DNA of 64,000 nucleotides from the NCBI GenBank assembly GCA_014695195.1, contig JACJNW010000037.1:124001-188000 (forward strand), read 5' to 3'. Positions 43,945 through 58,648 of this stretch are shown piece by piece. Below the pieces are notes generated by a model that was not told the origin of the DNA, ran no database searches, and was given only the letters and a program-made list of their open reading frames with translations. The position numbers were made by a program, and so were the translations under genes. Every line of letters begins with the position of its first letter. Within the stretch, counting starts at the first letter, position 1. Source of the stretch: Cyanobacteria bacterium FACHB-DQ100 (GTDB lineage: Bacteria; Cyanobacteriota; Cyanobacteriia; Leptolyngbyales; Leptolyngbyaceae).

Positions 43945-43947
43945 ACT

Positions 43948-44844
43948 ATGACAGAACGTACACCCCTTACCGTTGTTACGGGGCCTTTGGGCAGCGGCAA
44001 AACCACACTGTTGCGACACATTCTGAGTGTGATGCCGCGAAAGTTGGCAATTTTGATGAACGAGTTTGGGGAGATTGCGATCGACACCAAAATCCTTCAA
44101 GGCAAAAACGTTGAAATGGCAGATTTAGGTGGCGGTTGTGTTTGCTGTTCGCTCTTGGGTGAATTTGAAGCGGCGGTCGATGAAATTATTGCAACGGTCA
44201 ATCCGGATCAGATCATTGTGGAAACAACGGGCGTAGCGGAACCCGATGCGTTAGTGTTTGATATTCAAGAAAGCTTGCCTCAAGTGCGGCTCGATGGAGT
44301 TGTCACCGTGATGGATGCTGATGGTCTAGTGGCATATCCTCAAATTGGGCATACCTCTCGGATTCAAATTGAATCGGCTGATCTCATTCTGTTGAACAAA
44401 GTTGATTTAGTGACTGAAACTGAGTTAGAAACAGTCATCCATAAACTTCAGTCATTCAATAAAGTGGCATTTATTGTTCGCACGGTTCGATGCCAAATTG
44501 ATCTAGATCTATTGTTTGGCATTGGTCGAGAACGCTTACAACCTGCTCCGCACCATCAACATCAGCTAGAGGTTGAATCGTTTAGCTACACCGCTCAATC
44601 GGTTTACGATCGCGCTTGTTTTGAAACCTTTGCCGATTCTATGAACTCAACGATCTATCGAGCAAAAGGATTCATTCAACTTCCGGAGGGTACGCATCTC
44701 TTCAATTTTGTGGCGGGACGCTGGGATTTAGAATTGTTTGATGCTCCCGCGACAGAACTCGTGTTCATTGGTAAACAAGTGCGTCAGTTTCAATCTAACA
44801 TTTGCGACCGCCTGCAAGCTTGTGAACGATCGTCAGGAGAATAG
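43948..44844 (+). CDS. G3E (CobW/YjiA/COG0523) GTPase, candidate metallochaperone
   Basis: A 298-residue SIMIBI GTPase with Walker A TGPLGSGKTTLL, the metal-binding CxCC motif at 64-67 (GGGCVCCS), Walker B-like VETTGVAEPDAL and base-specificity motif LLNKVDL. A short His-rich stretch (APHHQHQ, about residue 195) precedes the CobW C-terminal domain. Such proteins use GTP to deliver a metal to a client enzyme. The start is 3 bases after the rtcB stop and archease follows 4 bases after its own stop, so the metal-dependent RtcB is an obvious candidate client. That last point is inference. Confidence 0.93.
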   Translation: MTERTPLTVVTGPLGSGKTTLLRHILSVMPRKLAILMNEFGEIAIDTKILQGKNVEMADLGGGCVCCSLLGEFEAAVDEIIATVNPDQIIVETTGVAEPDALVFDIQESLPQVRLDGVVTVMDADGLVAYPQIGHTSRIQIESADLILLNKVDLVTETELETVIHKLQSFNKVAFIVRTVRCQIDLDLLFGIGRERLQPAPHHQHQLEVESFSYTAQSVYDRACFETFADSMNSTIYRAKGFIQLPEGTHLFNFVAGRWDLELFDAPATELVFIGKQVRQFQSNICDRLQACERSSGE

Positions 44845-44848
44845 CCCC

Positions 44849-45280
44849 ATGCCTTACGAATTTCTAGAGGAAGTTGCAACGGCGGATATTGCCTTCTATG
44901 CCTGGGGAGCCGATCTAGAGGAAGTGTTCAAAGCTGCAGGCGATGCGGTGATCAACACAATGATTGAAAATCTAGATGCGATCGCACTGACTGAAACGCG
45001 CCCGTTCAATCTAGAGGATGACGCGCTCGATTTATTGTTATTCAACTTTCTCCAGGAGTTTGTTTACTACAAGGATAGTGAACTACTTTTACTGAGGGCG
45101 CAACAAATTCAGATCAAAGAGCAAGCAGCAATCTATCATCTCACTGCAACAATGCAAGGCGAACGGTTAGATCGCGATCGCCATCACCAGCGAGTGGATG
45201 TCAAAGCTGTCACACTCCATCAATTTGAACTAAAAAAGACCGACACGGGTTGGTCAGCACAAGTTATTCTAGACATCTAA
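44849..45280 (+). CDS. Archease, RtcB activator
   Basis: A 143-residue archease, the partner that speeds RtcB guanylylation and allows multiple turnovers. Family marks are EEVATADIAFYAWG at the start, LLFNFLQEFVYYKDSE in the middle and the closing VDVKAVTLHQFEL ... VILDI with the metal-binding Asp residues. The start at 44849 is supported by GGAG upstream; a longer frame begins inside the GTPase gene and is not used. rtcA follows one base after its stop. Confidence 0.95.
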   Translation: MPYEFLEEVATADIAFYAWGADLEEVFKAAGDAVINTMIENLDAIALTETRPFNLEDDALDLLLFNFLQEFVYYKDSELLLLRAQQIQIKEQAAIYHLTATMQGERLDRDRHHQRVDVKAVTLHQFELKKTDTGWSAQVILDI

Positions 45281-45281
45281 C

Positions 45282-46373
45282 ATGCTACAGATTGATGGTT
45301 CCTATGGAGAAGGCGGCGGGCAAATCCTGCGAACAAGCCTCAGTTTAGCGGCGATTACGGGACAACCAACTCGCATCGACCGCGTTCGGGCACGACGGGC
45401 AAAACCCGGACTCGCGATTCAACATCTCACCGCAGTCAGGGCAGCAGCAGCGCTCTGTCAGGCAGAAATCACAGGCGATAGGGTTGGCTCCACTCAACTA
45501 GAATTTATCCCGACGCAACCCGTCCAAGCCGGAGATTATACCTTTGATGTGGCTGAAACCCTTGGAACTGGATCTGCTGGAGCCGTAACGCTGATTCTGC
45601 AAACCGTTTTACTTCCCCTAGCACTCACAACAGGTACATCAACCGTGACCTTGAGAGGTGGAACGTTCATCCCCTTCAGCCCACCCGCTTCGTACATCGA
45701 GCAAGTGTATTTGCCCACCTTGCAGCGCATGGGAGTTCAGGCAGAGGTAGAAATCTTGGCTTGGGGCTGGTATCCACGCGGAGGGGGTGAAATCCAACTA
45801 CGAGTGAGTGGCAATGGTGGTAGTGTTGGTGCGCTCCACCCGATTCAATTACTAGAGCGCGGATCTCTACAACAGATTAAAGGATTAGCGATCGTGACCG
45901 AACTCCCGTCTCACATTCCCCAGCGGATGGCGAGTCGTGCGGAAAACTTGTTAGCGGAAGCCCAGCTCAAAGCACAGGTGAAAGCGCGACGACTCAAGGG
46001 CGTGGGTGCGGGTGCGGGTGTTTTTCTGACTGTCGAATATGAGCAAACAAGAGCAGGCTTTGGAGCGATTGGAAAACTTGGATTGCCTGCCGAAGAAGTG
46101 GCAGCGATCGCAGTTCAAGAATTTTTAGACTTTCACAAGACTGGAATGCCCGTTGATCTTCATCTAGCCGATCAATTGCTCTTACCTGCGGCGTTGGCAT
46201 CAAGTTCTAGCCAGTACCGAGCCGCTCAAATCAGTCTGCATCTATCAACGAATGCTTGGGCGATCGAGCAATTTGGTCTAGCAAAAATCTCGATCGACCA
46301 AACAGAACACCAAATTACTGTCGTCCCTTTGATTCACAAACGAACTAGCAAAATTGCTGGGTCAACGCAATAA
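45282..46373 (+). CDS. rtcA: RNA 3'-terminal phosphate cyclase
   Basis: A 363-residue RtcA that converts RNA 3'-phosphate to 2',3'-cyclic phosphate using ATP, thereby preparing or protecting ends for RtcB. It has the N-terminal DGSYGEGGGQILR, the internal GTGSAGAVTL-like segment, WYPRGGGE and the adenylated His at 294 in DLHLADQLLLPAAL. It is the last gene of the operon and is convergent with the DUF928 gene 49 bases downstream. Confidence 0.96.
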   Translation: MLQIDGSYGEGGGQILRTSLSLAAITGQPTRIDRVRARRAKPGLAIQHLTAVRAAAALCQAEITGDRVGSTQLEFIPTQPVQAGDYTFDVAETLGTGSAGAVTLILQTVLLPLALTTGTSTVTLRGGTFIPFSPPASYIEQVYLPTLQRMGVQAEVEILAWGWYPRGGGEIQLRVSGNGGSVGALHPIQLLERGSLQQIKGLAIVTELPSHIPQRMASRAENLLAEAQLKAQVKARRLKGVGAGAGVFLTVEYEQTRAGFGAIGKLGLPAEEVAAIAVQEFLDFHKTGMPVDLHLADQLLLPAALASSSSQYRAAQISLHLSTNAWAIEQFGLAKISIDQTEHQITVVPLIHKRTSKIAGSTQ

Positions 46374-46422
46374 CGATCGCAACGAGTTGTTCTGGATCAA
46401 TTGGCTTCCTACTTTGCTTGAG

Positions 46423-47208
46423 CTATGGCTGACAGCACGGAGTTACAGTGGCAGAGGTTTTTCCCTCTAGCCTTTGTTGCCGCAGTAAATCTCTCCAGGC
46501 AGCAAGAACCACTTGATTATTTTGAGATGCTTGAATCTGTACGCCCAAAGCAGTAAGAGCGTCATACCAAATGCCATATTTTGCATAAAGCTTGGCTCGA
46601 TCTAGGGGGGTTTTGGCTTGTTTAAGTTCCTGTTGTAACGCGGGAGGTGTTGCAACGCGCTGAATCCTACCTTTACGAACTAAAGGTCTATCAAAAGTAT
46701 TACTGTTCGGATCACTAGCAGAATTGCCTGCACTATCACAATAGAGGGCGAGATCCCATTGATAGGTGGCGATCGCAAGCGGCACACTTGCCGGAATGGA
46801 GAATCCAATGACACCGGGATTCGTTTTCGGCAAGCGGGAAGATGTTTTGTAGCGCGTCTTACCCGTTGCGTCGCGTAATCTCCACTCTGCAAGTGTTCCC
46901 GCAGTAATTCCGGTGGGAACATTGAACCAGACCGTTGGTCGATCGCTGACTGTTAAGCCCCAACGATCTGCAGGTACATTGGCATGAGGTGATGGAACTA
47001 ATGCAGCTAGGCCTGTGTAGACATCATCACAGGGACCGCGAGAGCCTCCGGCCTGTCCTCGGTCAGAAGGAGTCCCTGGATCGGGAGGCGTGGGCGGAGA
47101 AAAGTTAATTCGCTGTTGAGCATTCGAGAATTGAGCGATCGTAACTGTACCGATCAAAACAACCCCTAATGCAGCCGAGGCAGTTTTCATAGAGGCTAGA
47201 AAGGTCAT
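46423..47208 (-). CDS. DUF928 secreted protein
   Basis: A 261-residue exported protein of the DUF928 family, largely confined to cyanobacteria. A signal peptide (TASAALGVVLIGTVTIAQFSNA) is followed by a Pro-rich segment, then a beta-sandwich-like region with PTVWFNVP and YQWDLALYC, and a helical end containing YAKYGIWYDALTALG. It is the last gene of the minus-strand sigma/CHAT set, 18 bases after the CHAT-CHASE2 gene. DUF928 often travels with CHAT genes, so a shared envelope role is likely but unproven. Confidence 0.88.
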   Translation of the reverse strand: MTFLASMKTASAALGVVLIGTVTIAQFSNAQQRINFSPPTPPDPGTPSDRGQAGGSRGPCDDVYTGLAALVPSPHANVPADRWGLTVSDRPTVWFNVPTGITAGTLAEWRLRDATGKTRYKTSSRLPKTNPGVIGFSIPASVPLAIATYQWDLALYCDSAGNSASDPNSNTFDRPLVRKGRIQRVATPPALQQELKQAKTPLDRAKLYAKYGIWYDALTALGVQIQASQNNQVVLAAWRDLLRQQRLEGKTSATVTPCCQP

Positions 47209-47226
47209 GGGAAGCGTCTCCTGTTG

Positions 47227-49572
47227 TTAGTTACGATGGGCTAAAAAATGATAGGCAACAATACTACTATTCAGAATGAGACCCAATAGTGCAGGGATCA
47301 ATGGAATCCAGCCGCCTTGGGTGAGAATCAGCCAACAGCCGCTAATCAGTACCACAATACTGGCGACCATGGCGAATCCAATCCAGTTGACCTGCCGAAA
47401 ACACCATAGAATCAGTCCTCCTAGAAGCGTCCATCCCCCGATCCATAAAATTTCAATTCCAGGCGACCAGACCCAGAGTAAGGAGCGCTTATCCAATACA
47501 GCACTGAGCATCTGGCTGATCATGTGTGCATGAATGAGTACACCGGGCAGTCTTTGCGAAAAACTCCTACCATAAGGGGTTGCAGCGTAGTCTTTACTAC
47601 TGGAAGCCGTGACCCCAATTAGCACAATGCGACCTTTGATTGCCGCTAAATTGATTTGTCCACCCAGGAGCTGACGCACAGTAACTTGTTGAGCCATGTC
47701 CTGGGGAAATTTTGTCGATCGATAGTTGAGCAAAATCTGACTTCCGCGTGCATCAAAGCGTTGATAGCCCCCGGTTGGATTAGTTAAGCTTGGAAACACC
47801 GTGGAACCAAGCTGTAAATGGTTGTTCGAGGTGAACGTGGGCGCAATCTGGGGTTGTCGTGCAAACAGATATCGAAAGACTAGCTGCACACTCAGACTAT
47901 AGGGAGCAGAACAGGCTGCGATCGTATTAGGACTCGCGAATAACAACTGTCGCCGAATCACGCCGTCCCCATCTTCGAGAAAATCGCTGAAACCAACCTC
48001 TGATTGCCCAATTCCAGGGGGTGGTGCAATTCCTGTCGGATCATTCGATTCTGGATCAGGACGCTTACAGATCGCAATTAGCTGATCGTTCTGGGTCATT
48101 TGTTGAAGGCGTTTCTTTAAGCTAGAGCGGCGGGCTGGAAAGTCTCGATACAAATCAAGTCCAATTACTCGCGCTTGATGCTGCTCTAGCGTTTCGAGAA
48201 CGCGCTCTAGCGTTTCATCAGATAGTGAGCCAGCATTCTCCGGTTGTTTCTGAATGTCTTCCTCTTCCACTCGAACAATCAATAAACGTGGATCAGGTGG
48301 CTCGATCGGGCGATGTTGCATCAGAATATCAAACGCCTGGAGTTCCAAAGGTTGCAACAATCCAAACCAGCGTGTCCCAACAATCAAGCTTGTAACCAGC
48401 AGTGTGCTCAGTGCGAGCGTTTTAGCTTGCGATCGCGTCATCGGTGGTAGAAGCCTGCGTTTTTGACCACACCAATCTTGCCAAGTTGGTGGTACTTCTG
48501 CGGGATTTTGACAAATCACAGGCAGCCAAGTTGCACACGGAAATTCAGATTCTAGAGTTTGCAGTTTTTCTCGTGCCTTCCGAACCGCAGCATACAAAGA
48601 TTGCCCACTGGAAAAAGCGCTGAGAAAAGATTTGAGGAATTCCTGGGCAACTAGATCCGGAACAGGTTCCCGCATGACAATGACTTGGGGAAGCTGAAGA
48701 TCAGCAAGATCCTGAGCCAGCCCCAAGCCGTCACAGGAGTTGAAGATCGCCAGCTTCAGACCTTGTGCGATTGCATGGCGTAAGCCGTATTTGAGTTGTT
48801 CGATCGTGAGCGTTTCTGTTTGATTGATTTGAATGTAGCCTTTTTCACTGGTTGAACTATGTCCAGCAAAAAATAAAACATCCCAATTCGCTTGCCAAAC
48901 TTTTTCTTGCAAATCTTGCGCGGTCGGTTCAACTAAACAATGAATTTCACTATCTGGCAAACTTTCTAAGAGTTTGCGATCGCGCTCAACATCAATGCCT
49001 TTCGCATTGCCAAGAATGCTCAAAATTCTCACTTTCTTGCGTCGAGGCGGAGCTGGGAGTTGCAGCGATCGAGCAAATTCCGGCAAACTTAGCGCAATTT
49101 CAGCATGGGGATAGTCGGTGAGAAAGTCCCACAAACACCACGGCAATTTTAAGATCTGATTGTCTTTCGCAACAATCATTAACCGAATGTGATCTTGGGG
49201 TGAAAGGCGAGTCCGTAACTGTCGATCGATGACGCGAAAAGAACTCGCACTCAGCCACGCATTCAATTGAAGTTGCAGATCGTGAGATAGCTGATGAAAT
49301 TCTGAGGCGGAAATGTGAGTGACTTCTTCTTCATCAATTTCAAAGTCTGGATGGTGTGTTTGTCGCCATCCTAAATGAGCATAAAGCGCTGTGTAGAGCG
49401 ATCGCCACCGTTGATAGCGATCGACGATTCCCGGAATCGCGGGTAAGCTTCCGGTAAACTGCATGGGAGTCGATCGCCCAGATTCCCAAAGTTGAGCGAT
49501 CACGGTTGGAAATCCGTCTTGCCAATTGCCTTGCCCAAGATTGAGAACAATTAGATAATCCATAGTGAGCAT
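47227..49572 (-). CDS. CHAT protease-CHASE2 membrane receptor
   Basis: A 781-residue protein joining a caspase-like CHAT protease to an extracytoplasmic sensor. The CHAT domain (about 180-360) has the catalytic dyad H238 in FFAGHSS and C280 in IFNSCDG; residues 1-175 are a helical region of unknown fold. A membrane helix at about 384-404 leads to a CHASE2 domain (about 405-690), which should face outside, and three helices close the protein (about 700-778). The layout suggests an outside signal controlling a cytosolic protease. The first ATG or one 9 bases later may start it. Confidence 0.93.
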   Translation of the reverse strand: MLTMDYLIVLNLGQGNWQDGFPTVIAQLWESGRSTPMQFTGSLPAIPGIVDRYQRWRSLYTALYAHLGWRQTHHPDFEIDEEEVTHISASEFHQLSHDLQLQLNAWLSASSFRVIDRQLRTRLSPQDHIRLMIVAKDNQILKLPWCLWDFLTDYPHAEIALSLPEFARSLQLPAPPRRKKVRILSILGNAKGIDVERDRKLLESLPDSEIHCLVEPTAQDLQEKVWQANWDVLFFAGHSSTSEKGYIQINQTETLTIEQLKYGLRHAIAQGLKLAIFNSCDGLGLAQDLADLQLPQVIVMREPVPDLVAQEFLKSFLSAFSSGQSLYAAVRKAREKLQTLESEFPCATWLPVICQNPAEVPPTWQDWCGQKRRLLPPMTRSQAKTLALSTLLVTSLIVGTRWFGLLQPLELQAFDILMQHRPIEPPDPRLLIVRVEEEDIQKQPENAGSLSDETLERVLETLEQHQARVIGLDLYRDFPARRSSLKKRLQQMTQNDQLIAICKRPDPESNDPTGIAPPPGIGQSEVGFSDFLEDGDGVIRRQLLFASPNTIAACSAPYSLSVQLVFRYLFARQPQIAPTFTSNNHLQLGSTVFPSLTNPTGGYQRFDARGSQILLNYRSTKFPQDMAQQVTVRQLLGGQINLAAIKGRIVLIGVTASSSKDYAATPYGRSFSQRLPGVLIHAHMISQMLSAVLDKRSLLWVWSPGIEILWIGGWTLLGGLILWCFRQVNWIGFAMVASIVVLISGCWLILTQGGWIPLIPALLGLILNSSIVAYHFLAHRN

Positions 49573-49610
49573 CGCTATCTGTTACATAAAATAAGAACTC
49601 CGCCAACTTC

Positions 49611-50087
49611 CTAAACTATAAATCTCTCCGTTAAATCTGCCGAATCTAACGAAACTTGTAGCTTAAATCGTGTCCCGATCGAGCAACGAAATCGCTTCAG
49701 TTGAATGCCATTATCTTGATCACGAGCCGTCACCGATTGCACAACATCTCCTGAGTTTGACAGCAACGACAAACGAACCCCCGTGGGCAGAATCGCCGTG
49801 GGTTCAGCCGAACCGAGGTGCACTCGAACCGAAACGCGATTAACACTCCGCACACTGCCCAAACAATCGCCCTTCTTTTCTGATTTGACTAAAAGCCACA
49901 GCGTTTGTTCTCCGAGTTCTAACACTTTGGTTTGCTGCATTGGCACATCGGCTAGTTCAACAGTGTGCCGAAACTGATGGGTGATACAGGGTCTGTTGCT
50001 CGGTTCTGAGTCTGATGGTTGCCGATGATCCGTAAAGGTATTCTGTAACCATTGCCGGAGTTGGAGCAGAGTGTTAGGAAAAGTCAT
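49611..50087 (-). CDS. Short paralogue of the DUF1822 C-terminal domain
   Basis: A 158-residue protein. After a short LRQWLQNTF helix and a spacer, its last about 100 residues match the C-terminal domain of the DUF1822 protein two genes upstream: RVSVRVHLGSAEPTAILPTG with RVSIRVQLRPAERSQCLPMG, and SGDVVQSVTARDQDNGIQLK with SGDVVQSVQAREQDNSIQLQ. It has no signal peptide. The start at 50087 is supported by GAGG 7 bases upstream. It lies 38 bases before the CHAT-CHASE2 gene, so both are probably cotranscribed. Confidence 0.85.
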   Translation of the reverse strand: MTFPNTLLQLRQWLQNTFTDHRQPSDSEPSNRPCITHQFRHTVELADVPMQQTKVLELGEQTLWLLVKSEKKGDCLGSVRSVNRVSVRVHLGSAEPTAILPTGVRLSLLSNSGDVVQSVTARDQDNGIQLKRFRCSIGTRFKLQVSLDSADLTERFIV

Positions 50088-50231
50088 GGCAAACCTCACA
50101 AACAGAAGGTCAGGACAGCAAAATCCGATTGATAGTCTTAGCCACGTTTGCGTTTGGAGAAATATGCAGTCGATCGCTCTCAATGGACGAAATTTCTGCC
50201 CCTCAGATGTGCTTAATTGGATTTTTATCCT

Positions 50232-51602
50232 CTACCAAGGGTTGCCAATTAGCGTAAATGCTGCCCAGTGATGTGGGTGAGCGAAGTTTTCATCGATCGA
50301 AGGCACAATCCCTGAAAACGAGGGCTGATTGCGGAGGCGTTGCCGAATTTTAGCTGAGTTGCGAATCATTTCGATCTGAGCCTCTCGTAACGCATCCGCC
50401 TTTACTTCAGCCGTTTTGAGTTGCCGATAAAATTCCTGCATCAGGAGCAATGTACTCGCATCCCTCACCGACCAGAGCGACGCGATCGCCGCTTTACTTC
50501 CCGACTGCACGGCTAACCCCGCAAAGCCCATTTCTGCTTTACTATCCCCCAAAGCCGTCCGACAGGCACTCAACACCAACAACTGCACGGGCGGATTGCG
50601 TAACCCTAAGTCCTGAAGCTGACTGAGCCGCAACTGCTGATCCCAAAACTGGATGTATGACTGATTGACATCTCCGGGTGCAAATTCAGCATGGGTCGCC
50701 AAATGAACAATGCTGTAAGACTTTCTCTCCCGTACGGCTCTCAGGTTTTTGAGGGTGAAATTTTGATTGAGCAACGCCGTTCCTTCCCAAGGCGGTTGAG
50801 TAATTGCTGATAGCTCGATCGGTACACCAGGCAAAGGTGGCTTATTGTTGAAAGTCGATGCACCCATTGCCAAAATTCTGGTGTTCGTTGACGTTCGCGC
50901 TTGGCGATCGAGCAAATTAAATGCAGGAATAATTGCCAAGTTATACTTTTCGATCAAAAACTGTTTGCCATCATGCAGAGCTGCTAATGGCGTACTTCGT
51001 AATCCTGCTCCAAGACAAAATATGAGTTGATTGATGCCTTGCGATCGTAACTGCGGCTCCAAGGGGGCAACAATCCACTGATAAAGCTGTTGACCGGGTT
51101 GTAGATAATCCTCTGGGTCTGAGTCTTCCCGAACCACGCCCATGCGAAAGGCTTGAATCGTTTTAGTCAATGCCGCTCGATTAGCTGCGTTAATCCGGCG
51201 ATGAATCAGTCTACCGTTTGCCGTTACTAACATTAAATCGAGATGATTTGCCCCCGGAATCGCGTACAGCAAAGCAGATTTGCGTCCGGTGCGACGGTTA
51301 ATTTGTTCGAGAGACTCAACGATTTGAGGAGCAGACAGCACTTGAGTTGTGAACTTTCCTTGAAAGTACTCTTCGTATTGCTTTTTCCATCGCCGCTCAA
51401 TTTGTAGAACCGCTTCCGCGACATCGCCCCGATCGAGCGCTTGACCCACGAGATCCGGCGGTGGACTGGGAGAGGGCGTGACCGAGGCGGTTTCTTGAGC
51501 AGGTAGCGGAGCGATCGAGGACATCACGACCGAAGACGTAAATTCGCACCCAACTAGAGCAACAGAGAGTGCAACCCCAACAAACGGTAGATGCTTGTTC
51601 AT
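50232..51602 (-). CDS. CHAT domain lipoprotein
   Basis: A 456-residue exported CHAT protease. It begins with a lipoprotein signal (VALSVALVGC, lipid Cys at 19), a Pro/Ser linker and a helical region, then the CHAT domain (about 150-456) with H304 in HLATHAEF and C347 in VLSACRTALGD, ending in the typical WAAFTLIGNPW. The start at 51602 puts the signal at the N terminus; a start at 51671 would add 23 unlikely residues. Being lipidated, it should work outside the cytoplasm, unlike the CHAT-CHASE2 protein encoded downstream. Confidence 0.92.
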   Translation of the reverse strand: MNKHLPFVGVALSVALVGCEFTSSVVMSSIAPLPAQETASVTPSPSPPPDLVGQALDRGDVAEAVLQIERRWKKQYEEYFQGKFTTQVLSAPQIVESLEQINRRTGRKSALLYAIPGANHLDLMLVTANGRLIHRRINAANRAALTKTIQAFRMGVVREDSDPEDYLQPGQQLYQWIVAPLEPQLRSQGINQLIFCLGAGLRSTPLAALHDGKQFLIEKYNLAIIPAFNLLDRQARTSTNTRILAMGASTFNNKPPLPGVPIELSAITQPPWEGTALLNQNFTLKNLRAVRERKSYSIVHLATHAEFAPGDVNQSYIQFWDQQLRLSQLQDLGLRNPPVQLLVLSACRTALGDSKAEMGFAGLAVQSGSKAAIASLWSVRDASTLLLMQEFYRQLKTAEVKADALREAQIEMIRNSAKIRQRLRNQPSFSGIVPSIDENFAHPHHWAAFTLIGNPW

Positions 51603-51873
51603 AAGTCTTCGACGAAATAGCAGGTAGATAGTAGACAGCTTCAGTGATGTCTCGGCTCGATCGTTGAACAATGGATAGGGAGAGCCGTTGACCTCTAATT
51701 GATAAATCTCGTTTTCATGGATTTGGTGCTTTGACGAATGAATAGCAGCTTCTGTTGCATTGATTCCTGAATTGGCTACAAAACTTTGGATTTTTCCCCT
51801 AAGTTCGTCATCGCGGACTAAGTTTTTATAGCCCCGAATCTATTTGCTAAGCTATTTCCCAGATCGAGCCGCT

Positions 51874-53007
51874 TTAACATTGAAACGCTTCGGTTAGAAC
51901 CGCATTGCCCAATGCAACCTGAAAACTAAATTTAGTTCCCGCAGGGCACTTGAATCGTTGTAGCTGAATTGAGTTATCCTGCTCCCGTGCTTGAACCGAT
52001 TGCACAACATCGCCCGAAGCAGAAACCAGCGATAGCGACAAACCCATTGGCAAGCACTGAGAACGCTCTGCCGGACGAAGTTGCACTCGAATGCTGACTC
52101 GACCATCCGCTTCGGGAGCGAGGGCAAGCATCAACAGAACTGTTTGTTCTGCAAACTCTAACGGTTTCACTCGTCGAACCCCAGTCGGTTCCATGACCTC
52201 CGTTTGGCGAAAACTGAATGCCAATTCTTCGGGATTCAGCCACGTCTCGATCGCGCTCCATCCCGCCGTAAACGAGTTCTCTAGCCATTGCCGCAAATTC
52301 GTTGCAACCGTTGTATTCGGATTGCGACCTTGACGCAGTTGATGTAATCTTTCTCGCCACGATCGCGTTTCCAGTAATGATCCCCACATCGTAAACGGAA
52401 TTTCTAAGCGCGGTTGCTCCACAGTCGCCAGCCGTTGCAGTAAATTTTCTGCTTGTGTTTCCGCAACCGATGGTAATTCTGTAACCTCAACTCGTGTGGG
52501 TTCTGTCGGATAGAGTTGACGCATCACCCATAACACCGCAATGTCCTGAACCAGAAACTGAGCATCAAGACCATAAGCACGATCGCTGGAATCATACTGT
52601 CCGAGCGCCTTGATCTGTGCGTGGGTGGTATATCCCCAAATCCGCAGGGATGACTCATCGGGATTGATTTGAACCGCCAAATAATAGTCTCCAACCCAGC
52701 TAGGAACATCAATCCATTCTTGTGGAACTCTCAGTTCACTCGTGTCAAAACTTTTCTCTGGAATCAGCACCAAGCGTTTTTCATTCCACTCAATGGCGCA
52801 ACCCTGAATCAAGTCCCACGCGGTCAAAGAAGCCGTCGATCGCGACGCGTATTCCGCCTGCAACCACAGTAAAACTGTCTCCAAACAAACCTGATTCAGA
52901 TATGCTGTCCACTGTGCTTTCGGCATCGAGTAGCGTTGACTGTGTTGCCAAGCGCGGTGATCGATCGCTGCGGAAATTTGTAATTCTAGTTGCGTAATGC
53001 TGTCCAT
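51874..53007 (-). CDS. DUF1822 family protein
   Basis: A 377-residue protein of the cyanobacterial DUF1822 family. The N-terminal domain (about 1-195) contains the family segments WTAYLNQVCLETVLLWLQAE and SWVGDYYLAVQINPDESSLR. A linker with a WxxxL helix follows (LRQWLENSF), and the C-terminal beta domain (about 265-377) carries the SGDVVQSVQAREQDN signature repeated in the shorter neighbour. No enzyme motif is seen. It follows the sigma factor gene by 37 bases. Its constant pairing with sigma and CHAT genes suggests a regulator or substrate; that is inference. Confidence 0.9.
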   Translation of the reverse strand: MDSITQLELQISAAIDHRAWQHSQRYSMPKAQWTAYLNQVCLETVLLWLQAEYASRSTASLTAWDLIQGCAIEWNEKRLVLIPEKSFDTSELRVPQEWIDVPSWVGDYYLAVQINPDESSLRIWGYTTHAQIKALGQYDSSDRAYGLDAQFLVQDIAVLWVMRQLYPTEPTRVEVTELPSVAETQAENLLQRLATVEQPRLEIPFTMWGSLLETRSWRERLHQLRQGRNPNTTVATNLRQWLENSFTAGWSAIETWLNPEELAFSFRQTEVMEPTGVRRVKPLEFAEQTVLLMLALAPEADGRVSIRVQLRPAERSQCLPMGLSLSLVSASGDVVQSVQAREQDNSIQLQRFKCPAGTKFSFQVALGNAVLTEAFQC

Positions 53008-53044
53008 AACTGTTGTTTAAGTGTCTGTACGATTCAATCGATCC

Positions 53045-54226
53045 TCATCCCCTCTTTTCCATTAGCCATTCTTCCAATACCGCGCTGATTTGTTTTCCCA
53101 CGTCTGAAGTTGGTGCAATATGCAAAGTGTCCTGACTCCAACGCAAAAGCGCCGATAGTAAAGCCTCGCGTGCCTTACTAAGCTTGCGAGATACAGCATA
53201 TTGCTGGATTCCTAATTGTTTTGCAATCTCCTGCTGAGTTAAATTTTGTTGATAATAAAGCTGCAACAGCTCTTGGCTCGCAGGATCAAGTTTGGCGATC
53301 GCCGCTTCTAAAACTTGATTGAGTTGCGATCGCTGCGCCTGCCGTTCCTCAAGGTCTTCCTGAGAAATCAAGTCTGTCAACAATGACTCTTGAGCCGGAT
53401 CAACTATGTCATCTTGAATTTCTTTGGTGTCTTCGCCCAACTTCGGCGCATTCAGCGAAGAGACAGCAGGATAGAGATACGATCGCACGCGGTTGACACA
53501 AGCCGTTAACCATTTCTGGATCACATCCGCACTTGCCTCAGCGCCAGGAGATCGCAGTTGATGGCGTTGCTGATTGTAGCGACTGGCGATCGCGTCCCAC
53601 GTTTCCCGGTTAGGTGCAGGAAGTTGACGCAATTTGGGAGATTTTGTGGGCAAATAAACCGACTCAAAACACGACCACGCTAGAATCCAGCGATCGATGT
53701 CATCCGTATTCAAGCCCGCATTCTGTAAAGACTCTACCAATCGCTTACGACTGACTTTTAATAACAATCCCCAATCGCTACATAAATCAATTTCGCGACT
53801 CTGCCGCAAAAAATCTCGAATACTATTATTAAAGGCTTGACTGGCATAAGTTTTCAGACTGCCGGGATAATCAGGATCTCGCGCCTTGAGAATTCTTGGC
53901 ACCTCTGCGATCGCCACTTGAAAACAATCTGATAAGCGATACCGTGATTGAGACAAATACGGCATCGTTCTATATGCACTCCAGTAACAAGCCTCTTGCA
54001 GGTACGCAGATAGATGCCCCAACGCTGTCTTTTTATCTGAGTGCTGTTGCCAGACTTTTTGCCAATAAACGACCCAAAAAGTATCCGCGTGAGGCTCCGA
54101 TCGCTCAGATAAATGTGTTTGAATGCTGCGCCGCAATCGTGCATCTGTTGCCCATCCCCCAAAGCTGTCAGCCTTAAACTGTACAAAGGTTGAAAATAAA
54201 TCGATGATGCTTTGACGGGGTTGCAT
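53045..54226 (-). CDS. Sigma-70 family RNA polymerase sigma factor, cyanobacterial long type
   Basis: A 393-residue sigma factor-like protein. The C-terminal region 4 is clear (about 318-368: LDPASQELLQLYYQQNLTQQ, then EIAKQLGIQQYAVSRKLSKA with the helix-turn-helix). Region 2 is divergent and lies around 75-160 (YWSAYRTMPYL, TYASQAFNNSIRDFLRQS). The long middle part (about 160-310) is unlike classical ECF factors. The start at 54226 has GGAG 8 bases upstream; an in-frame GTG 9 bases earlier is less likely. As first gene of the set it probably directs transcription of the CHAT/DUF1822 genes and perhaps itself. Confidence 0.88.
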   Translation of the reverse strand: MQPRQSIIDLFSTFVQFKADSFGGWATDARLRRSIQTHLSERSEPHADTFWVVYWQKVWQQHSDKKTALGHLSAYLQEACYWSAYRTMPYLSQSRYRLSDCFQVAIAEVPRILKARDPDYPGSLKTYASQAFNNSIRDFLRQSREIDLCSDWGLLLKVSRKRLVESLQNAGLNTDDIDRWILAWSCFESVYLPTKSPKLRQLPAPNRETWDAIASRYNQQRHQLRSPGAEASADVIQKWLTACVNRVRSYLYPAVSSLNAPKLGEDTKEIQDDIVDPAQESLLTDLISQEDLEERQAQRSQLNQVLEAAIAKLDPASQELLQLYYQQNLTQQEIAKQLGIQQYAVSRKLSKAREALLSALLRWSQDTLHIAPTSDVGKQISAVLEEWLMEKRG

Positions 54227-54314
54227 GAAACGCACTCCTGCTGTGCAAAGGACTCAACCCCCTCAAATTACTAGGTTTATCAATGGGTTTCAATATCCGA
54301 TGCGGAAGTTGTGG

Positions 54315-54420: not shown

Positions 54421-54629
54421 CCGTGCCATTTCCCTCATCCAGCCTGCTTTGTAGCCGCGTTGTCACCCCCTGAAGAAAATCAATCTCTTCACTGCTTGGA
54501 AAACAAGCGGTTATGGCTATATAACCACTGCTATACCTGCTCTTACTGGCAGTTTCTTCGAGGAGTCTTACTAAAAATCTCCAGACGCTTGAAGCAGCCT
54601 GGAGATCGAAATCAATTTATCAACGTAAA
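54421..54629. other. Intergenic between the sigma palindrome and the sulfur-carrier gene
   Basis: No gene is seen. GGTTAT-GGCTAT-ATAACC near 54510 is a short palindrome. A CCAGACGCTT...AGCAGCCTGG-type pairing at about 54579-54603 could end the minus-strand thrC message. Confidence 0.35.
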
Positions 54630-54905
54630 TTAGCCACCCGCGATCGCAGGAATAATGCTCACTTCGTCACCATCTTTAAGCGGCGTATTCACTCCATCAA
54701 GAAAGCGAATGTCTTCGCTGTTCACATAGAAGTTGACGAAGCGGCGCAATTGTCCTTGCTCATCACACAACCGCGCTTTAATACCTGGACAGTTAGATTC
54801 AAGCGACTCTAACAGCGTACCAATGGTATCGCCGCTACATTCAACGGTTGCCTGATCGTTGGTGAGCTTTTGCAGAGGAGTTGGAATTAAAACTTTAACA
54901 GCCAT
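54630..54905 (-). CDS. MoaD/ThiS family sulfur-carrier protein, downstream of thrC
   Basis: A 91-residue ubiquitin-fold protein ending in the activatable Gly-Gly (IIPAIAGG), which after adenylation and thiocarboxylation carries sulfur for molybdopterin, thiazole or cysteine synthesis. The inserted [20 protein letters not shown] segment is typical of the longer CysO-like MoaD group. It follows threonine synthase by 32 bases on the same strand. Which sulfur pathway it serves is open. Confidence 0.9.
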
Positions 54906-54937
54906 AACCTTAGAACAATGTGGAAAGAACTAAAACA

Positions 54938-56239
54938 TTAAACCAAAACTTGTTGCCACTCTAGACGATCGAGCGTTCTGGATCTTTCTAATGCACGCTC
55001 GAAGCTATCGAGTTTCGGTTCGATCGTGAACGGTTCGCCGACGTAACCTTGTACTGCTTCTTGAGTCTTCAGACCGTTTCCGGTGATGTAGGCGACCGTC
55101 GTTTCATCGGGATTGATCTTGCCTGCTTCGACCAATTTCTTCAGCACTGCGATCGTCGTTCCGCCTGCGGTTTCGGTGAAGATTCCTTCGGTTTCCGCCA
55201 GTAGCTTGATGCCTTCGATAATTTCAGCATCGGTGACCGATTCGATGTTGCCGTTGGTTTTCCGAGCGATATCGACCGCATAAACACCATCTGCGGGATT
55301 TCCGATTGCGATCGATTTGGCGATCGTGTTCGGCTTCACCGGGGAGATGAAGTCGCGTCCTTCTTGAAAGGCTTTGGCGATCGGAGAACATCCTTCCGCT
55401 TGTGCGCCACTGAATCGAACCGCTTTTTCATCAACCAAGCCCACTTCGACGAACTCTTGGAAGCCTTTGTAGATCTTGGTGAAGAGTGAACCCGATGCCA
55501 ACGGAGCAACAATGTGATCTGGCAGTTGCCATCCAAGCTGTTCGATCACTTCGTAGCCCAGAGTTTTTGAACCTTCAGAATAGTAGGGGCGCAGGTTAAT
55601 ATTTACAAATCCCCAACCGTGGGTGTTTGCCACTTCAGAGCAGAGGCGATTCACTTGGTCGTAGTTACCGTGAACTGCCATCACAGTTGGGCTGTAGATT
55701 AGCGTTCCGAGGACTTTTCCGGCTTCAAGATCGGACGGAATGAACACACAGCAATCGAGACCTGCATGAGCAGCGATCGCCGCAGTCGAGTTGGCTAAGT
55801 TTCCGGTACTGGCACAAGAAACCGTGGTAAAGCCCAATTCACGGGCGCGGCTCAATGCTACCGAAACGACGCGATCCTTAAAGCTCAGGGTCGGCATGTT
55901 CACTGCATCATTCTTGATGTACAGCTTCTTCAGACCCAACCGACGCGCCAAACGATTTGCTTGCAGCAAGGGAGTCATCCCAGTTCCGACATCAATGACG
56001 TTATCGGTTTCAACGGGGAGAAACGGACGATAGCGCCAAATCGAGTTCGGGCCTGCTTGAATGGTTTCGCGAGTGACTGTTTTGCGGAGCCAATCGTAAT
56101 CATATTTGACTTCTAACGGGCCAAAACACATCTCGCATACATGAGTTGCTTTTGGCTCGTATTCTGCGCCGCACTCTTTACACTTGAGCGCTTCAAAAGC
56201 AGATTGGCTAGAACGAATTTTGGAATGGGTAACGGTCAT
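54938..56239 (-). CDS. thrC: Threonine synthase
   Basis: A 433-residue PLP enzyme converting O-phosphohomoserine to threonine. An N-terminal Cys4 ribbon (CKECGAEYEP ... CEMCFGPLEVKYDYDW) precedes the fold-type II core with the PLP Lys in LSFKDRVV, the phosphate loop SCASTGNLANSTA and the late TETAGGTTIAVL. The start at 56239 is supported by GGAG 9 bases upstream; a frame extending 22 residues further looks non-coding. It is flanked on both sides by MoaD/ThiS genes on the same strand. Confidence 0.95.
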   Translation of the reverse strand: MTVTHSKIRSSQSAFEALKCKECGAEYEPKATHVCEMCFGPLEVKYDYDWLRKTVTRETIQAGPNSIWRYRPFLPVETDNVIDVGTGMTPLLQANRLARRLGLKKLYIKNDAVNMPTLSFKDRVVSVALSRARELGFTTVSCASTGNLANSTAAIAAHAGLDCCVFIPSDLEAGKVLGTLIYSPTVMAVHGNYDQVNRLCSEVANTHGWGFVNINLRPYYSEGSKTLGYEVIEQLGWQLPDHIVAPLASGSLFTKIYKGFQEFVEVGLVDEKAVRFSGAQAEGCSPIAKAFQEGRDFISPVKPNTIAKSIAIGNPADGVYAVDIARKTNGNIESVTDAEIIEGIKLLAETEGIFTETAGGTTIAVLKKLVEAGKINPDETTVAYITGNGLKTQEAVQGYVGEPFTIEPKLDSFERALERSRTLDRLEWQQVLV

Positions 56240-56353
56240 CTCTCGAAACTCCCTATCAGCAAGCTCTCTATCGTTTGACTGTGATTTCGCTTGAAATCGT
56301 ATCACGCGAAAAATATCGAGTCAAACAAATCCGATAGTTTTTGTCGGGATTGC

Positions 56354-56611
56354 TCAACCACCGCTCACAGGCGGGATTAGAACGATTTCATCGCCGTTTT
56401 GGACGATCGTCTCTGCGGAAACAAATTCCAAATTTATGCCAAATTGAGTAATACCCTTGAGCGGCGCAAGCTGAGGACGATCGTACAGAATGCGATCGCA
56501 CACCTGCTCAACGCTCACGCCTTGAGGCAATTCTAGGGTTAGTTCTGGCACTCCGTAAGCATCCTGATACGCCGCAAATAGCTTTACGGTCACGGTAATT
56601 GAGTCAGACAT
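56354..56611 (-). CDS. MoaD-like sulfur-carrier protein, upstream of thrC
   Basis: An 85-residue ubiquitin-fold protein ending in PPVSGG, the typical MoaD tail. It is shorter than the second carrier downstream of thrC and closer to true MoaD (TVKLFAAYQDAYG start, NGDEIVLIPPVSGG end), so molybdopterin synthesis is the first guess. No moaE is in the window. It lies 114 bases before thrC and could share its transcript. Confidence 0.9.
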   Translation of the reverse strand: MSDSITVTVKLFAAYQDAYGVPELTLELPQGVSVEQVCDRILYDRPQLAPLKGITQFGINLEFVSAETIVQNGDEIVLIPPVSGG

Positions 56612-56692
56612 CTTCGGTAAAATTCAACATGTTTGTTCAAAATTAGGCGAAAAAGATCACTCTAAAGAAAAACGATCGCGCCTCCTCTGAGT

Positions 56693-58648
56693 ATGACGTA
56701 CTGTATTAACCCTGACTGCCCCCAGCCTCAGAATCCAGATCGCCTTGAACGCTGTCAGAGTTGCGGCACTCTGATGAAACTCAGAGGACGTTATTGCGTT
56801 GTGCAACCGCTCGGACGAGGCGGATTTGGCAAGACTTTTTTAGCGATCGATGAAGATCGCTTAGGAACTCGCTGCGTAATTAAACAGTTTTTGCCGCAGA
56901 GCAAAGGAACCAAGGCGCTGAACAAAGCGATTCAACTGTTTGAACAAGAAGCCGTCCGACTCCATGAACTCGGAGAGCATCCCCACATTCCCACACTCTT
57001 GGCTTATTTTGAGCAGGAACAGCGCCTCTATTTGGTGCAGCAGTACATTGAGGGGGCGACTCTGGCGCAAGAACTAGCCCAAACTGGGGTCTTCAACGAA
57101 CAAAAGATTCGAGAAGTGTTAGTGCGGCTGTTGCCGATTTTGAAATTTGTTCACGATCGCAATGTGATTCATCGTGACATTACACCTGCCAATATTATTC
57201 GCCGCAAGCTAGACGGACGATTAGTGCTGATTGATTTCGGCGTTGCCAAGGTGTTGCCGGAGACGGATGCGATTCAGCCCGGAACCAGAATCGGAACAGA
57301 AGGCTATGCCCCCGTCGAACAACTGCGAAACGGCAAAGCTTATCCTGCAAGCGATTTATACAGCTTAGGTGCAACTTGTATCTACTTACTCACTCAAGTC
57401 AGACCTGAAAAACTGCATGATCCAATATCGGGGCGCTGGCTTTGGCGCGAACACCTGGAGCGGCGCGGCGGTGGCATTAGCCAAAGGATCGGGCAAATTC
57501 TCGATCGCTTGCTCAGGGATCTAGTGAGCGAACGGTATCAAACTGCCGATGAAGCGATGCATGACCTAAGAATGGCATTATCTACGCCTGCGGTTGGTGC
57601 AATGAGGGAGTTTGAAAGCAACGAGGTGACAGCGCCAGTCCTCGCAACACAGCCGCCGGAGTTGCGCCCTTCGCGACCGAGCATTCCGCCTCCGCCCTCG
57701 ATACCCACGAGCGCCGCCCGCTATGTTTCAAAGAGTTCACAGCCGCGAAAATGTCTCTACACCTTGAGCGGTCACAGCACTTGGGTGATATCACTCGCGG
57801 TTAGTCCAGACCAACGCACGTTAGTCAGCGGGAGTTTAGACGATCGCATTTTCATGTGGGATGCAAGCACAGGAGAACGGTTAGGCACGTTCATCGGTCA
57901 TACAAAATCGGTGAATTCGCTTGCGTTTAGTCCTGATGGGAGGCGATTGGTCAGTTGTAGCGATGATGATTCGATTAAGATTTGGGACTTACCCAGTGGT
58001 GAGTTAATCCGATCGCTCTGCGGTCATTTGCGCGATGTGAACGCGATCTCGCTGAGTCCCGATGGACAGTTTTTCGTCAGTGGTAGTGAGGATCGCACCG
58101 TTTGCGTTTGGCGATTGCAGACTGGGGAACTGCTGCAAAGCTTCACTACGTCAGGGATGGTGCGATCGGTAGCGGTTAGCCCAAACGGTCAAATTGTTGC
58201 CAGTGGTGGGCTGGATAATCAAATTAGGCTGTGGAGTTTGAGGACAGGTCAGCAGATTCGGACATTAAGCGGACATCAAAATTCCATTATGTCGATCGCG
58301 CTCAATCCGCAAGGCGATCGTCTTGTAAGTGCGAGTAAAGACAAAACAATCCGGATTTGGGAGCCGAATTCTGGAGAACTGCTGCAAACCTTGACCGGAC
58401 ATTTCGATATTGTTTGCACGATCGCGATTAGTCCCGATGGCAAGACCTTGATTAGCGGCAGCAATGATAAAACGATTAAGCTTTGGAACCTTAGCACTGG
58501 AGACCTTCTTTGCACCTTGAGTGAGCATTCTCAAGCGGTCAATGCGATCGCGATTAGCTCAGACGGCAGGTGGTTCGCTAGTGGTAGTTCAGATAACACT
58601 GTAAAAATCTGGCAATTAAGAACGTTAGAACTTGTTCCACCGCTTTGA
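56693..58648 (+). CDS. Ser/Thr kinase with zinc ribbon and seven WD40 repeats
   Basis: A 651-residue cytoplasmic kinase. A Cys4 ribbon (C4, C9, C21, C24) starts the protein. A Hanks-type kinase follows (about 33-300) with GRGGFGKTF, K64, HRDITPAN (D162) and DFG at 181-183. A Pro-rich linker leads to a WD40 propeller (about 355-648) with seven units, each close to the GH...SPDG...SGS.D.TI..W pattern; the fourth lacks the GH pair. The propeller probably binds partner proteins. The 3' end overlaps the convergent hydrolase gene by 24 bases. Confidence 0.94.
   Translation: MTYCINPDCPQPQNPDRLERCQSCGTLMKLRGRYCVVQPLGRGGFGKTFLAIDEDRLGTRCVIKQFLPQSKGTKALNKAIQLFEQEAVRLHELGEHPHIPTLLAYFEQEQRLYLVQQYIEGATLAQELAQTGVFNEQKIREVLVRLLPILKFVHDRNVIHRDITPANIIRRKLDGRLVLIDFGVAKVLPETDAIQPGTRIGTEGYAPVEQLRNGKAYPASDLYSLGATCIYLLTQVRPEKLHDPISGRWLWREHLERRGGGISQRIGQILDRLLRDLVSERYQTADEAMHDLRMALSTPAVGAMREFESNEVTAPVLATQPPELRPSRPSIPPPPSIPTSAARYVSKSSQPRKCLYTLSGHSTWVISLAVSPDQRTLVSGSLDDRIFMWDASTGERLGTFIGHTKSVNSLAFSPDGRRLVSCSDDDSIKIWDLPSGELIRSLCGHLRDVNAISLSPDGQFFVSGSEDRTVCVWRLQTGELLQSFTTSGMVRSVAVSPNGQIVASGGLDNQIRLWSLRTGQQIRTLSGHQNSIMSIALNPQGDRLVSASKDKTIRIWEPNSGELLQTLTGHFDIVCTIAISPDGKTLISGSNDKTIKLWNLSTGDLLCTLSEHSQAVNAIAISSDGRWFASGSSDNTVKIWQLRTLELVPPL

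Follow-up and report, generated by a model that had tools for sequence, protein, structure and literature searches.

A conserved cyanobacterial cassette of sigma factor, DUF1822 and CHAT–CHASE2 protease, with DUF1822 as a proposed anti-sigma factor

What brings a sigma factor together with two caspase-like CHAT proteins, two DUF1822 proteins and a secreted DUF928 protein in a single row of genes? The question is raised by the genome of Cyanobacteria bacterium FACHB-DQ100 (assembly GCA_014695195.1), from which forward-strand positions 124,001–188,000 of contig JACJNW010000037.1 were taken for analysis; this whole stretch of 64,000 nucleotides is hereafter the window, position 1 being its first letter. 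On the minus strand of the window, at 46423–54226, lie in operon order the genes for a sigma-70 family factor, a DUF1822 protein, a CHAT lipoprotein, a short DUF1822 C-tail protein, a CHAT–CHASE2 protein and a DUF928 protein (Table 1). A first-pass annotation had seen here a candidate proteolytic signalling system, and the six genes and families that it named are all present, as judged by Pfam and TIGR matches. The reading developed below is that of a transmembrane switch encoded in one operon, in which DUF1822 would be an anti-sigma factor whose linker is cut by the CHAT–CHASE2 protein, such that the sigma factor is freed. Taken as a whole, this reading falls a shade short of an even chance, and its parts differ in strength.

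Inheritance of the cassette as one block

In the nearest relative found, Cyanobacteria bacterium FACHB-63 (locus L097), all six genes occur in identical order, within a homologous block that corresponds to window 46407–54312 (7.9 kb, 92.4% identity) and whose edges lie 16 bases past the DUF928 stop codon and 86 bases ahead of the sigma start codon. The right flank (54570–58492 in the stretch compared) sits on a different FACHB-63 contig at 92.6% identity, where the adjoining 1.5 kb holds no cassette and contains an open reading frame (ORF) resembling, by eye, an ABC transporter ATPase. The left flank, 43900–46406, was not found in FACHB-63, an empty answer being weak evidence. Since one FACHB-63 block carries all six genes between other flanks, the set has been inherited as a unit. 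In other words, at the level of sequence, the comparison establishes the cassette as a real, conserved and transferable signalling unit, the genes of which are inherited jointly.

In the same comparison the dN/dS values suggest purifying selection on each of the six genes, at 0.17 for sigma, 0.20 for DUF1822, 0.13 for the CHAT lipoprotein, 0.39 for the C-tail protein (a value that takes in its probably untranslated start), 0.09 for CHAT–CHASE2 and 0.19 for DUF928. The gaps between the longest ORFs, in operon order, are 37, 202, 48, 38 and 18 nucleotides; their description in the first-pass annotation as mostly short is fair for most of them, but the second and third widen to 271 and 144 nucleotides when measured to the later ATG codons of the CHAT lipoprotein and the C-tail protein. 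The upstream DNA that moves with the cassette, 54227–54312, is a candidate promoter and leader. Scans for promoters gave 9 against 11.7 in shuffles, and those for terminators 16 against 13.8.

Beyond this pair of genomes, two samples of DUF1822 loci were compared. The phylum sample holds 80 loci from 40 genomes, being the best-ranked Pfam DUF1822 matches rather than a random draw, and leaves out the loci of the organism's own genome and one neighbour within the same stretch; the GTDB sample holds the best 80 of 465 relatives by similarity to the window DUF1822 protein. Genes were called as mechanical ORFs and domains with hidden Markov models (HMMs) iterated on the sampled loci, an operon being defined by a common strand and gaps of up to 400 nucleotides; loci are cut at contig ends, and some absences may be false. 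DUF1822 matches occur in 109 of 146 sampled phylum genomes, 106 of them above the family cut-off, with matches from outside the class mostly weak. In the phylum sample a sigma gene immediately precedes DUF1822 at 64 of 80 loci, and 70 of 80 have one somewhere in the stretch; in the GTDB sample it immediately precedes DUF1822 at 74 of 80. Outside these counts, a relaxed search gave a weak sigma-like gene directly upstream of DUF1822 at five more loci (L043, L065, L084, L088 and L094). A CHAT of the CHAT–CHASE2 type stands in the operon at 43 phylum and 70 GTDB loci, and at 16 phylum-sample loci from 14 genomes sigma directly upstream and CHAT–CHASE2 in the operon are joined by DUF928 within the stretch.

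In the organism's own genome, which gives 12 CHAT matches, three of four full DUF1822 loci (P 4e-5) and all five full DUF928 genes (P 5e-9) have a CHAT gene no more than 5 kb away, where 0.022 would be expected per gene; the C-tail gene and one DUF928 fragment were omitted from this test. Plasmids, among them pANACY.04 of Anabaena cylindrica PCC 7122 and one from Nostoc sp. TCL26-01, carry cassettes in which a hypothetical protein of ~505 aa, DUF1822, a CHASE2 protein and DUF928 follow in a row, with a CHAT gene alongside on the opposite strand. In phage records DUF1822 was not found (tblastn, 1e-5). A count of neighbours of the kind that had been proposed with the first-pass annotation therefore gives a neighbourhood conserved beyond chance, and its loss was looked for and not found.

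Two observations may be added on the surroundings of such cassettes. A stretch of ~55 bases at window 54421–54479, ~110 bases beyond the cassette edge, has six similar copies in FACHB-63 (83–89%) and is a dispersed repeat near the breakpoint. Locus L153 comes from a contig filed as a metagenome-assembled genome of Crocinitomicaceae (Bacteroidota), with a cassette closest to that of a unicellular cyanobacterium, by either wrong binning or transfer.

DUF1822 as a candidate partner of the sigma factor

A gene lying right behind a sigma gene often encodes its anti-sigma factor, and it is in this light that the adjacency of DUF1822 was considered. The AlphaFold2 model of the window DUF1822 protein (predicted local distance difference test, pLDDT, 86.7; predicted template modelling score, pTM, 0.61) has an alpha/beta N-domain, a low-confidence linker and a beta-sandwich C-domain. 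In the linker pLDDT drops below 50 at residues 230–233 and 267–272; R267 is invariant in 66 rows and 268–276 are variable. Fold comparison barely covers the N-domain and gives Ig-like matches for the C-domain, with Z up to 7.8. Two assignments were considered and set aside: DUF1822 as a TPR protein, there being no TPR by Pfam or in the model of the window member, and kinship to Csx30 or any solved protein, for which there is no sequence match, the C-domain fold matches being to a common Ig-like sandwich and uninformative.

A model of the putative complex is available from locus L104, where the sigma gene is in frame with that for DUF1822; read through the intervening stops, the two give a chain of 821 aa with a linker of ~30 residues between the two proteins. 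The model of this read-through chain has a pLDDT of 84.8 and a pTM of 0.77. By an estimate from the pTM formula with assumed values of the predicted aligned error (PAE), two proteins without a placed interface give 0.46–0.58, and 0.77 requires ~72–89% of the residues to lie in a single frame; the pTM of DUF1822 alone is near the 0.48–0.63 estimated in this way for floating domains. Compared with sigma factors (49 long rows), the L104 sigma part gives Z 8.4–10.0 with an rmsd (root mean square deviation) of 21.5–29.6 over 154–248 residues, that is, a piecewise match only, and its sigma2 alone gives Z 9.0 and rmsd 2.1 over 93 residues. This poor overlay of the whole might be compatible with a sigma factor held in sequestered form in the model.

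Covariation across 73 loci points to the same pair. The partial distance correlation between sigma and the DUF1822 N-domain is 0.51 (bootstrap 0.24–0.75), the strongest between proteins; that between CHAT and CHASE2, which are one chain, is 0.54, and that between sigma and the DUF1822 C-domain is 0.05. Together, model and covariation make binding of DUF1822 to the sigma factor likely, and that DUF1822 would inhibit it is probable, at somewhat lower confidence.

As for the kind of sigma factor, ECF (extracytoplasmic function, group 4) sigma factors have regions 2 and 4 only, in about 200 aa. The window sigma factor has 393 aa; it exceeds the PF07638 (Sigma70_ECF) cut-off of 21.1 bits with 23.3 bits over residues 296–359 only, region 2 being below the cut-off, and its L104 homologue aligns over 16–371 with sigmaS, sigmaB and sigmaA.

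CHAT proteases, their sensors and DUF928

Both His/Cys dyads named in the first-pass annotation are as claimed, the H304/C347 pair of the lipoprotein being counted from the ATG at 51602 and equal to H327/C370 of the TTG ORF. They are also intact in homologues, in which their loss was looked for and not found: of 130 rows of the CHAT–CHASE2 type three are fragments, and the dyad is present in all 127 that extend to it; in the second CHAT type the His is kept in 60 of 60 and the Cys in 62 of 62 (62 rows, two too short for the His). Against PDB sequences, neither CHAT protein gave a useful match, Csx29 included.

The coupling of CHAT to a sensor is likewise borne out, CHAT and CHASE2 being in one protein. 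In the phylum sample CHASE2 is the commonest sensor seen, in 28 of 42 type-A operons (see below) that have a CHAT of this type. Twelve scanned relatives without CHASE2 carry Peripla_BP_6/ANF (six), PBP_like_2 (one), TPR (one), WD40 (one), nSTAND1–WD40 (two) or weak HEAT only (one). It is evident from these domain matches that sensors have been exchanged behind a constant CHAT part.

By contrast with this constant part, the CHAT lipoprotein and the C-tail protein, which consists of linker and C-domain without an N-domain, are a local variant. Among 20 short CHAT proteins of 400–520 aa the lipobox is matched by three (window, L097 and L098), and two (L032 and L121) have no signal or anchor by eye; short relatives of the lipoprotein stand upstream of sigma in many GTDB loci. 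A free linker and C-domain protein occurs, among annotated loci, only in the window and L097. Any role assigned to these two proteins is conjectural. A separate observation concerns proteins in which a two-partner secretion (TPS) domain and a CHAT domain are combined: one in the own genome (L011:4375–8298, by Pfam) and likewise, by our own HMMs, L190:2409–7877 and L192:4371–8798, with ShlB-type genes adjoining in L011 and L190. Such a protein is probably a caspase-like protease exported by two-partner secretion.

By HMM score there are two C-terminal types of DUF1822, of which the window protein is type A. A CHAT–CHASE2-type protein stands in the operon at 42 of 65 type-A phylum loci, and at none of 14 type-B phylum loci nor at the one type-B locus of the own genome (L008), sigma being directly upstream in all 15 type-B loci. 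All 80 GTDB loci are type A because they were found by similarity to the window protein. In what is a weaker association, the C-terminal type appears to track the CHAT–CHASE2-type protease, and with the limits given below DUF1822 keeps its place as a candidate substrate. The type-B sigma–DUF1822 pairs are those at L008:7682–9971 and at 14 further loci (L017–L027, L029, L031 and L033). Locus L032 is a decayed cassette, in which sigma, DUF1822, CHAT, CHASE2 and DUF928 are called only as short pieces.

DUF928, the other candidate substrate of the first-pass annotation, fares differently. It is in the stretch at 23 of 28 type-A DUF1822 loci with CHAT–CHASE2 in the operon, against two of 37 without (Fisher P 1e-10, which is generous as the loci are related). 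Of 20 DUF928-centred loci, sampled at every fourth row from the top 80 of a ranked list and including two that overlap DUF1822 loci, 12 have CHASE2, 10 a CHAT of some kind, eight two-partner secretion genes and two DUF1822. Moreover, its N-terminus, with a hydrophobic stretch, is signal-like, and DUF928 should therefore be separated from the CHAT domain by the membrane, if the topology is that of the CHASE2 family. A protein expected on that side, and which follows CHASE2 rather than sigma, is unlikely to be a CHAT substrate; these observations agree more with a partner of CHASE2 in the periplasm than with the target of a protease in the cytoplasm.

Table 1. Coordinates of the cassette and its proposed parts in the window.
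Feature	Position	Strand	Basis
Candidate promoter and leader	54227..54312	-	Upstream DNA moving with the cassette; homology to L097 begins at window 54312
Sigma-70 family factor, 393 aa from ATG (GTG ORF start 54235)	53045..54226	-	TIGR02937 3e-35, Sigma70_r4 2e-10
DUF1822 protein, proposed anti-sigma factor	51874..53007	-	PF08852 1.8e-91
DUF1822 N-domain, residues 1-225, proposed sigma-binding part	52333..53007	-	AlphaFold2 model; sigma covariation
DUF1822 linker, residues 226-276, proposed cut region	52180..52332	-	Low pLDDT; putative cut
DUF1822 C-domain, residues 277-377, beta-sandwich, type A	51877..52179	-	AlphaFold2 model; Ig-like matches
CHAT lipoprotein, 456 aa from ATG, lipobox LVGC, H304/C347	50232..51602	-	PF12770 1.5e-68
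DUF1822 C-tail protein, ~158 aa from ATG (TTG ORF to 50183)	49611..50087	-	PF08852 4.3e-17, Pfam positions 228-370 only
CHAT-CHASE2 sensor protease (EACC2-caspase type), H238/C280	47227..49572	-	PF12770 9.8e-15, PF05226 1.3e-63
DUF928 protein, secreted, proposed CHASE2 partner	46423..47208	-	PF06051 3e-40; N-terminal hydrophobic stretch

Beside the cassette, on the plus strand at window 42484–46373, lie in a row RtcB, a CobW-type GTPase, an ORF of 180 aa (archease by eye) and RtcA; at 56693–58648 WD40 repeats are fused to a protein kinase.

A proposed switch, its precedents and its rivals

How, then, might these parts work together? In the proposed switch the N-domain of DUF1822 would bind the sigma factor and keep it off RNA polymerase, with the C-domain completing the clamp or presenting the linker. 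CHASE2, probably with periplasmic DUF928, would sense an envelope signal and activate the cytoplasmic CHAT protease at the opposite end of the same polypeptide. CHAT would then cut the DUF1822 linker between N- and C-domain, such that the clamp opens and the sigma factor is freed to transcribe its targets. In relatives other sensors serve the same core of sigma, DUF1822 and CHAT; this lineage has gained a second CHAT, the exported lipoprotein, and the free C-tail of DUF1822, which may compete for the protease or act as decoys. We infer the topology, the inhibition, the cleavage with its cut site and the signal; cleavage of DUF1822 by CHAT–CHASE2 is finely balanced, leaning slightly towards the negative. 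The place of the sigma factor in the pathway thus differs from that in the first-pass annotation, since it is more likely the output held by DUF1822 than just the gene that sets expression.

Part of this has precedent. The core kind of system is already in print, since a sensor-swapped CHAT with sigma and DUF1822 matches the EACC2-caspase proteins of Kaur et al. 2021 (PMC8195603), which are described as having variable C-termini, CHASE2 included, and as standing beside an ECF sigma factor and DUF1822. The first-pass annotation knew of no described function for this set, which is, however, not wholly undescribed; DUF1822 as an anti-sigma factor was not found in the open-access literature searched, a scope outside which most subscription papers lie, and the words anti-sigma and DUF928 are absent from the main text of Kaur et al. 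In common with the EACC2-caspases, the window protein has a constant N-terminal module (~190 residues, judged as EACC2 by the published description rather than by profile) ahead of a caspase-like domain with intact dyad, an exchangeable C-terminal sensor, and sigma and DUF1822 as neighbours. The TRADD-N partner described there belongs to the first group of these systems only. Unlike the account of Kaur et al., in which DUF1822 is a TPR protein, the model here gives an alpha/beta N-domain and a beta-sandwich with no TPR array.

Closer in logic is craspase of type III-E CRISPR, in which, as reported, Csx29 cuts Csx30 and so frees CASP-sigma (PMC10028731). Common to both would be a CHAT protease, an anti-sigma substrate (here proposed) and a sigma factor in one locus; the window sigma factor also has a match to the III-E sigma model NF041236 (8.7e-6), although with 25.8 bits it stays well under the cut-off of 100. 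Here, unlike in the craspase described, the sensor is CHASE2, Pfam giving CHAT and CHASE2 only and no TPR; and PADLOC names no Cas7-11 or other Cas among the six proteins, these six being the part of the genome searched for Cas7-11. Neither DUF1822 nor CHAT–CHASE2 has a sequence match to the solved craspase parts in the PDB, and Csx30 is absent from the DUF1822 fold matches listed, an absence that excludes nothing. CalpL/CalpT/CalpS (PMC11417357) is reported to have the same logic of sensor-protease, anti-sigma factor and sigma factor as is proposed here, but with a Lon protease driven by cyclic oligoadenylate. By analogy, the cassette may work like craspase and CalpL/T/S, and is a member of neither.

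Within cyanobacteria, HetF carries a CHAT-type domain. In Anabaena it is reported to cut the regulator PatU3 (PMC12288457), a likeness in that a cyanobacterial protease would here, too, cut a negative regulator, albeit another substrate; unlike HetF, CHAT–CHASE2 reaches only 17.4 bits against NF045509, with a cut-off of 1200.

Several observations weigh against the switch as proposed. The fused sigma–DUF1822 model comes from one homologue, with no negative control and no PAE. The DUF1822 profile met no solved protein among PDB sequences at E 5, and Pfam gives no known anti-sigma domain in the protein, DUF1822 being the only match. In the covariation of the 73 loci, sigma and CHAT have a partial correlation of 0.24 (bootstrap 0.08–0.57), and that of the C-domain with CHAT is weak at 0.28 (−0.07 to 0.42). 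In a tree of N-domains (114 rows) type B forms a single clade nested in type A; its link with absence of the protease therefore counts as one event, for which a Fisher P of 5e-6 is overstated. In addition, the type HMMs were seeded from counted loci (12 type A, nine type B) chosen with the gene orders already known. Type-A loci without a CHAT–CHASE2-type protein number 23 of 65 in the operon and 18 of 65 in the stretch examined, and the unclassed L032, grouped with type B by its N-domain, has broken CHAT and CHASE2 pieces downstream. The other, TPR-CHAT-like class occurs in the stretch of four of 14 type-B loci, and at L025 and L026 it is the next gene of the operon. Type B may therefore depend on a different CHAT, as opposed to having none, and this gene content points to a second class of protease there.

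What else could explain the cassette? An unlikely, though serious, alternative is that CHAT belongs to a conflict system, in which it acts chiefly as autopeptidase or death effector and cuts itself or cell proteins, with DUF1822 as adaptor and sigma as the transcriptional arm. This is the direction of Kaur et al., who predict a conflict system with activation of the autopeptidase and sigma as a possible last step (PMC8195603), and the nSTAND1–WD40 variants do resemble conflict receptors. It sits less well with the 15 type-B loci, where sigma and DUF1822 occur without the CHAT–CHASE2-type protease, and with CHASE2 as the commonest sensor in type-A operons. In PADLOC the CHAT lipoprotein matched BovA (8.9e-8) and sigma gave four matches in its helix-turn-helix region (7e-4 or weaker), the six proteins yielding nothing else; this likewise argues against a conflict effector, an absent match not excluding such a role.

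Improbable, too, is that DUF1822 is a sigma partner and not a substrate, be it a chaperone, a co-activator or a partner released by contact with a CHAT scaffold. The predicted complex would fit inhibition or activation alike, and the 15 type-B pairs, none with a CHAT–CHASE2-type protein nearby, speak for this reading. Against this, the full retention of the dyad in readable rows implies that catalysis matters, and the modelled sigma factor overlays RNA-polymerase-bound sigma piecewise only. That the genes are neighbours merely through a mobile regulatory island, with separate tasks for the two CHAT proteins, DUF928 and sigma, is very unlikely. In its favour, cassettes do lie on plasmids, and DUF928 and CHASE2 do occur with TPR-CHAT and two-partner secretion genes and no sigma; it is opposed by the FACHB-63 block, in which the six genes keep their order and were inherited jointly, and by the adjacency of sigma and DUF1822 in most phylum loci.

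In its broadest form, the proposal of DUF1822 as an anti-sigma factor cut by CHAT would make it a new class of soluble two-domain anti-sigma factors, carried by cyanobacteria in many plug-in cassettes where CHAT on varied sensors cuts DUF1822: a CRISPR-free counterpart of craspase, here with an outside CHAT and a C-domain decoy added. This wider form is tentative, possible rather than probable. The core gene set is already listed in print; the anti-sigma reading with CHAT cleavage is a proposal made here for its function. Many cyanobacterial CHAT proteases and DUF1822 genes are without known function, and were DUF1822 indeed an anti-sigma factor cut by a sensor-linked CHAT, one simple assay would assign a function to both families. 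It would also mean that the logic of craspase exists without CRISPR, and that an exchangeable module leading from sensor to transcription is available.

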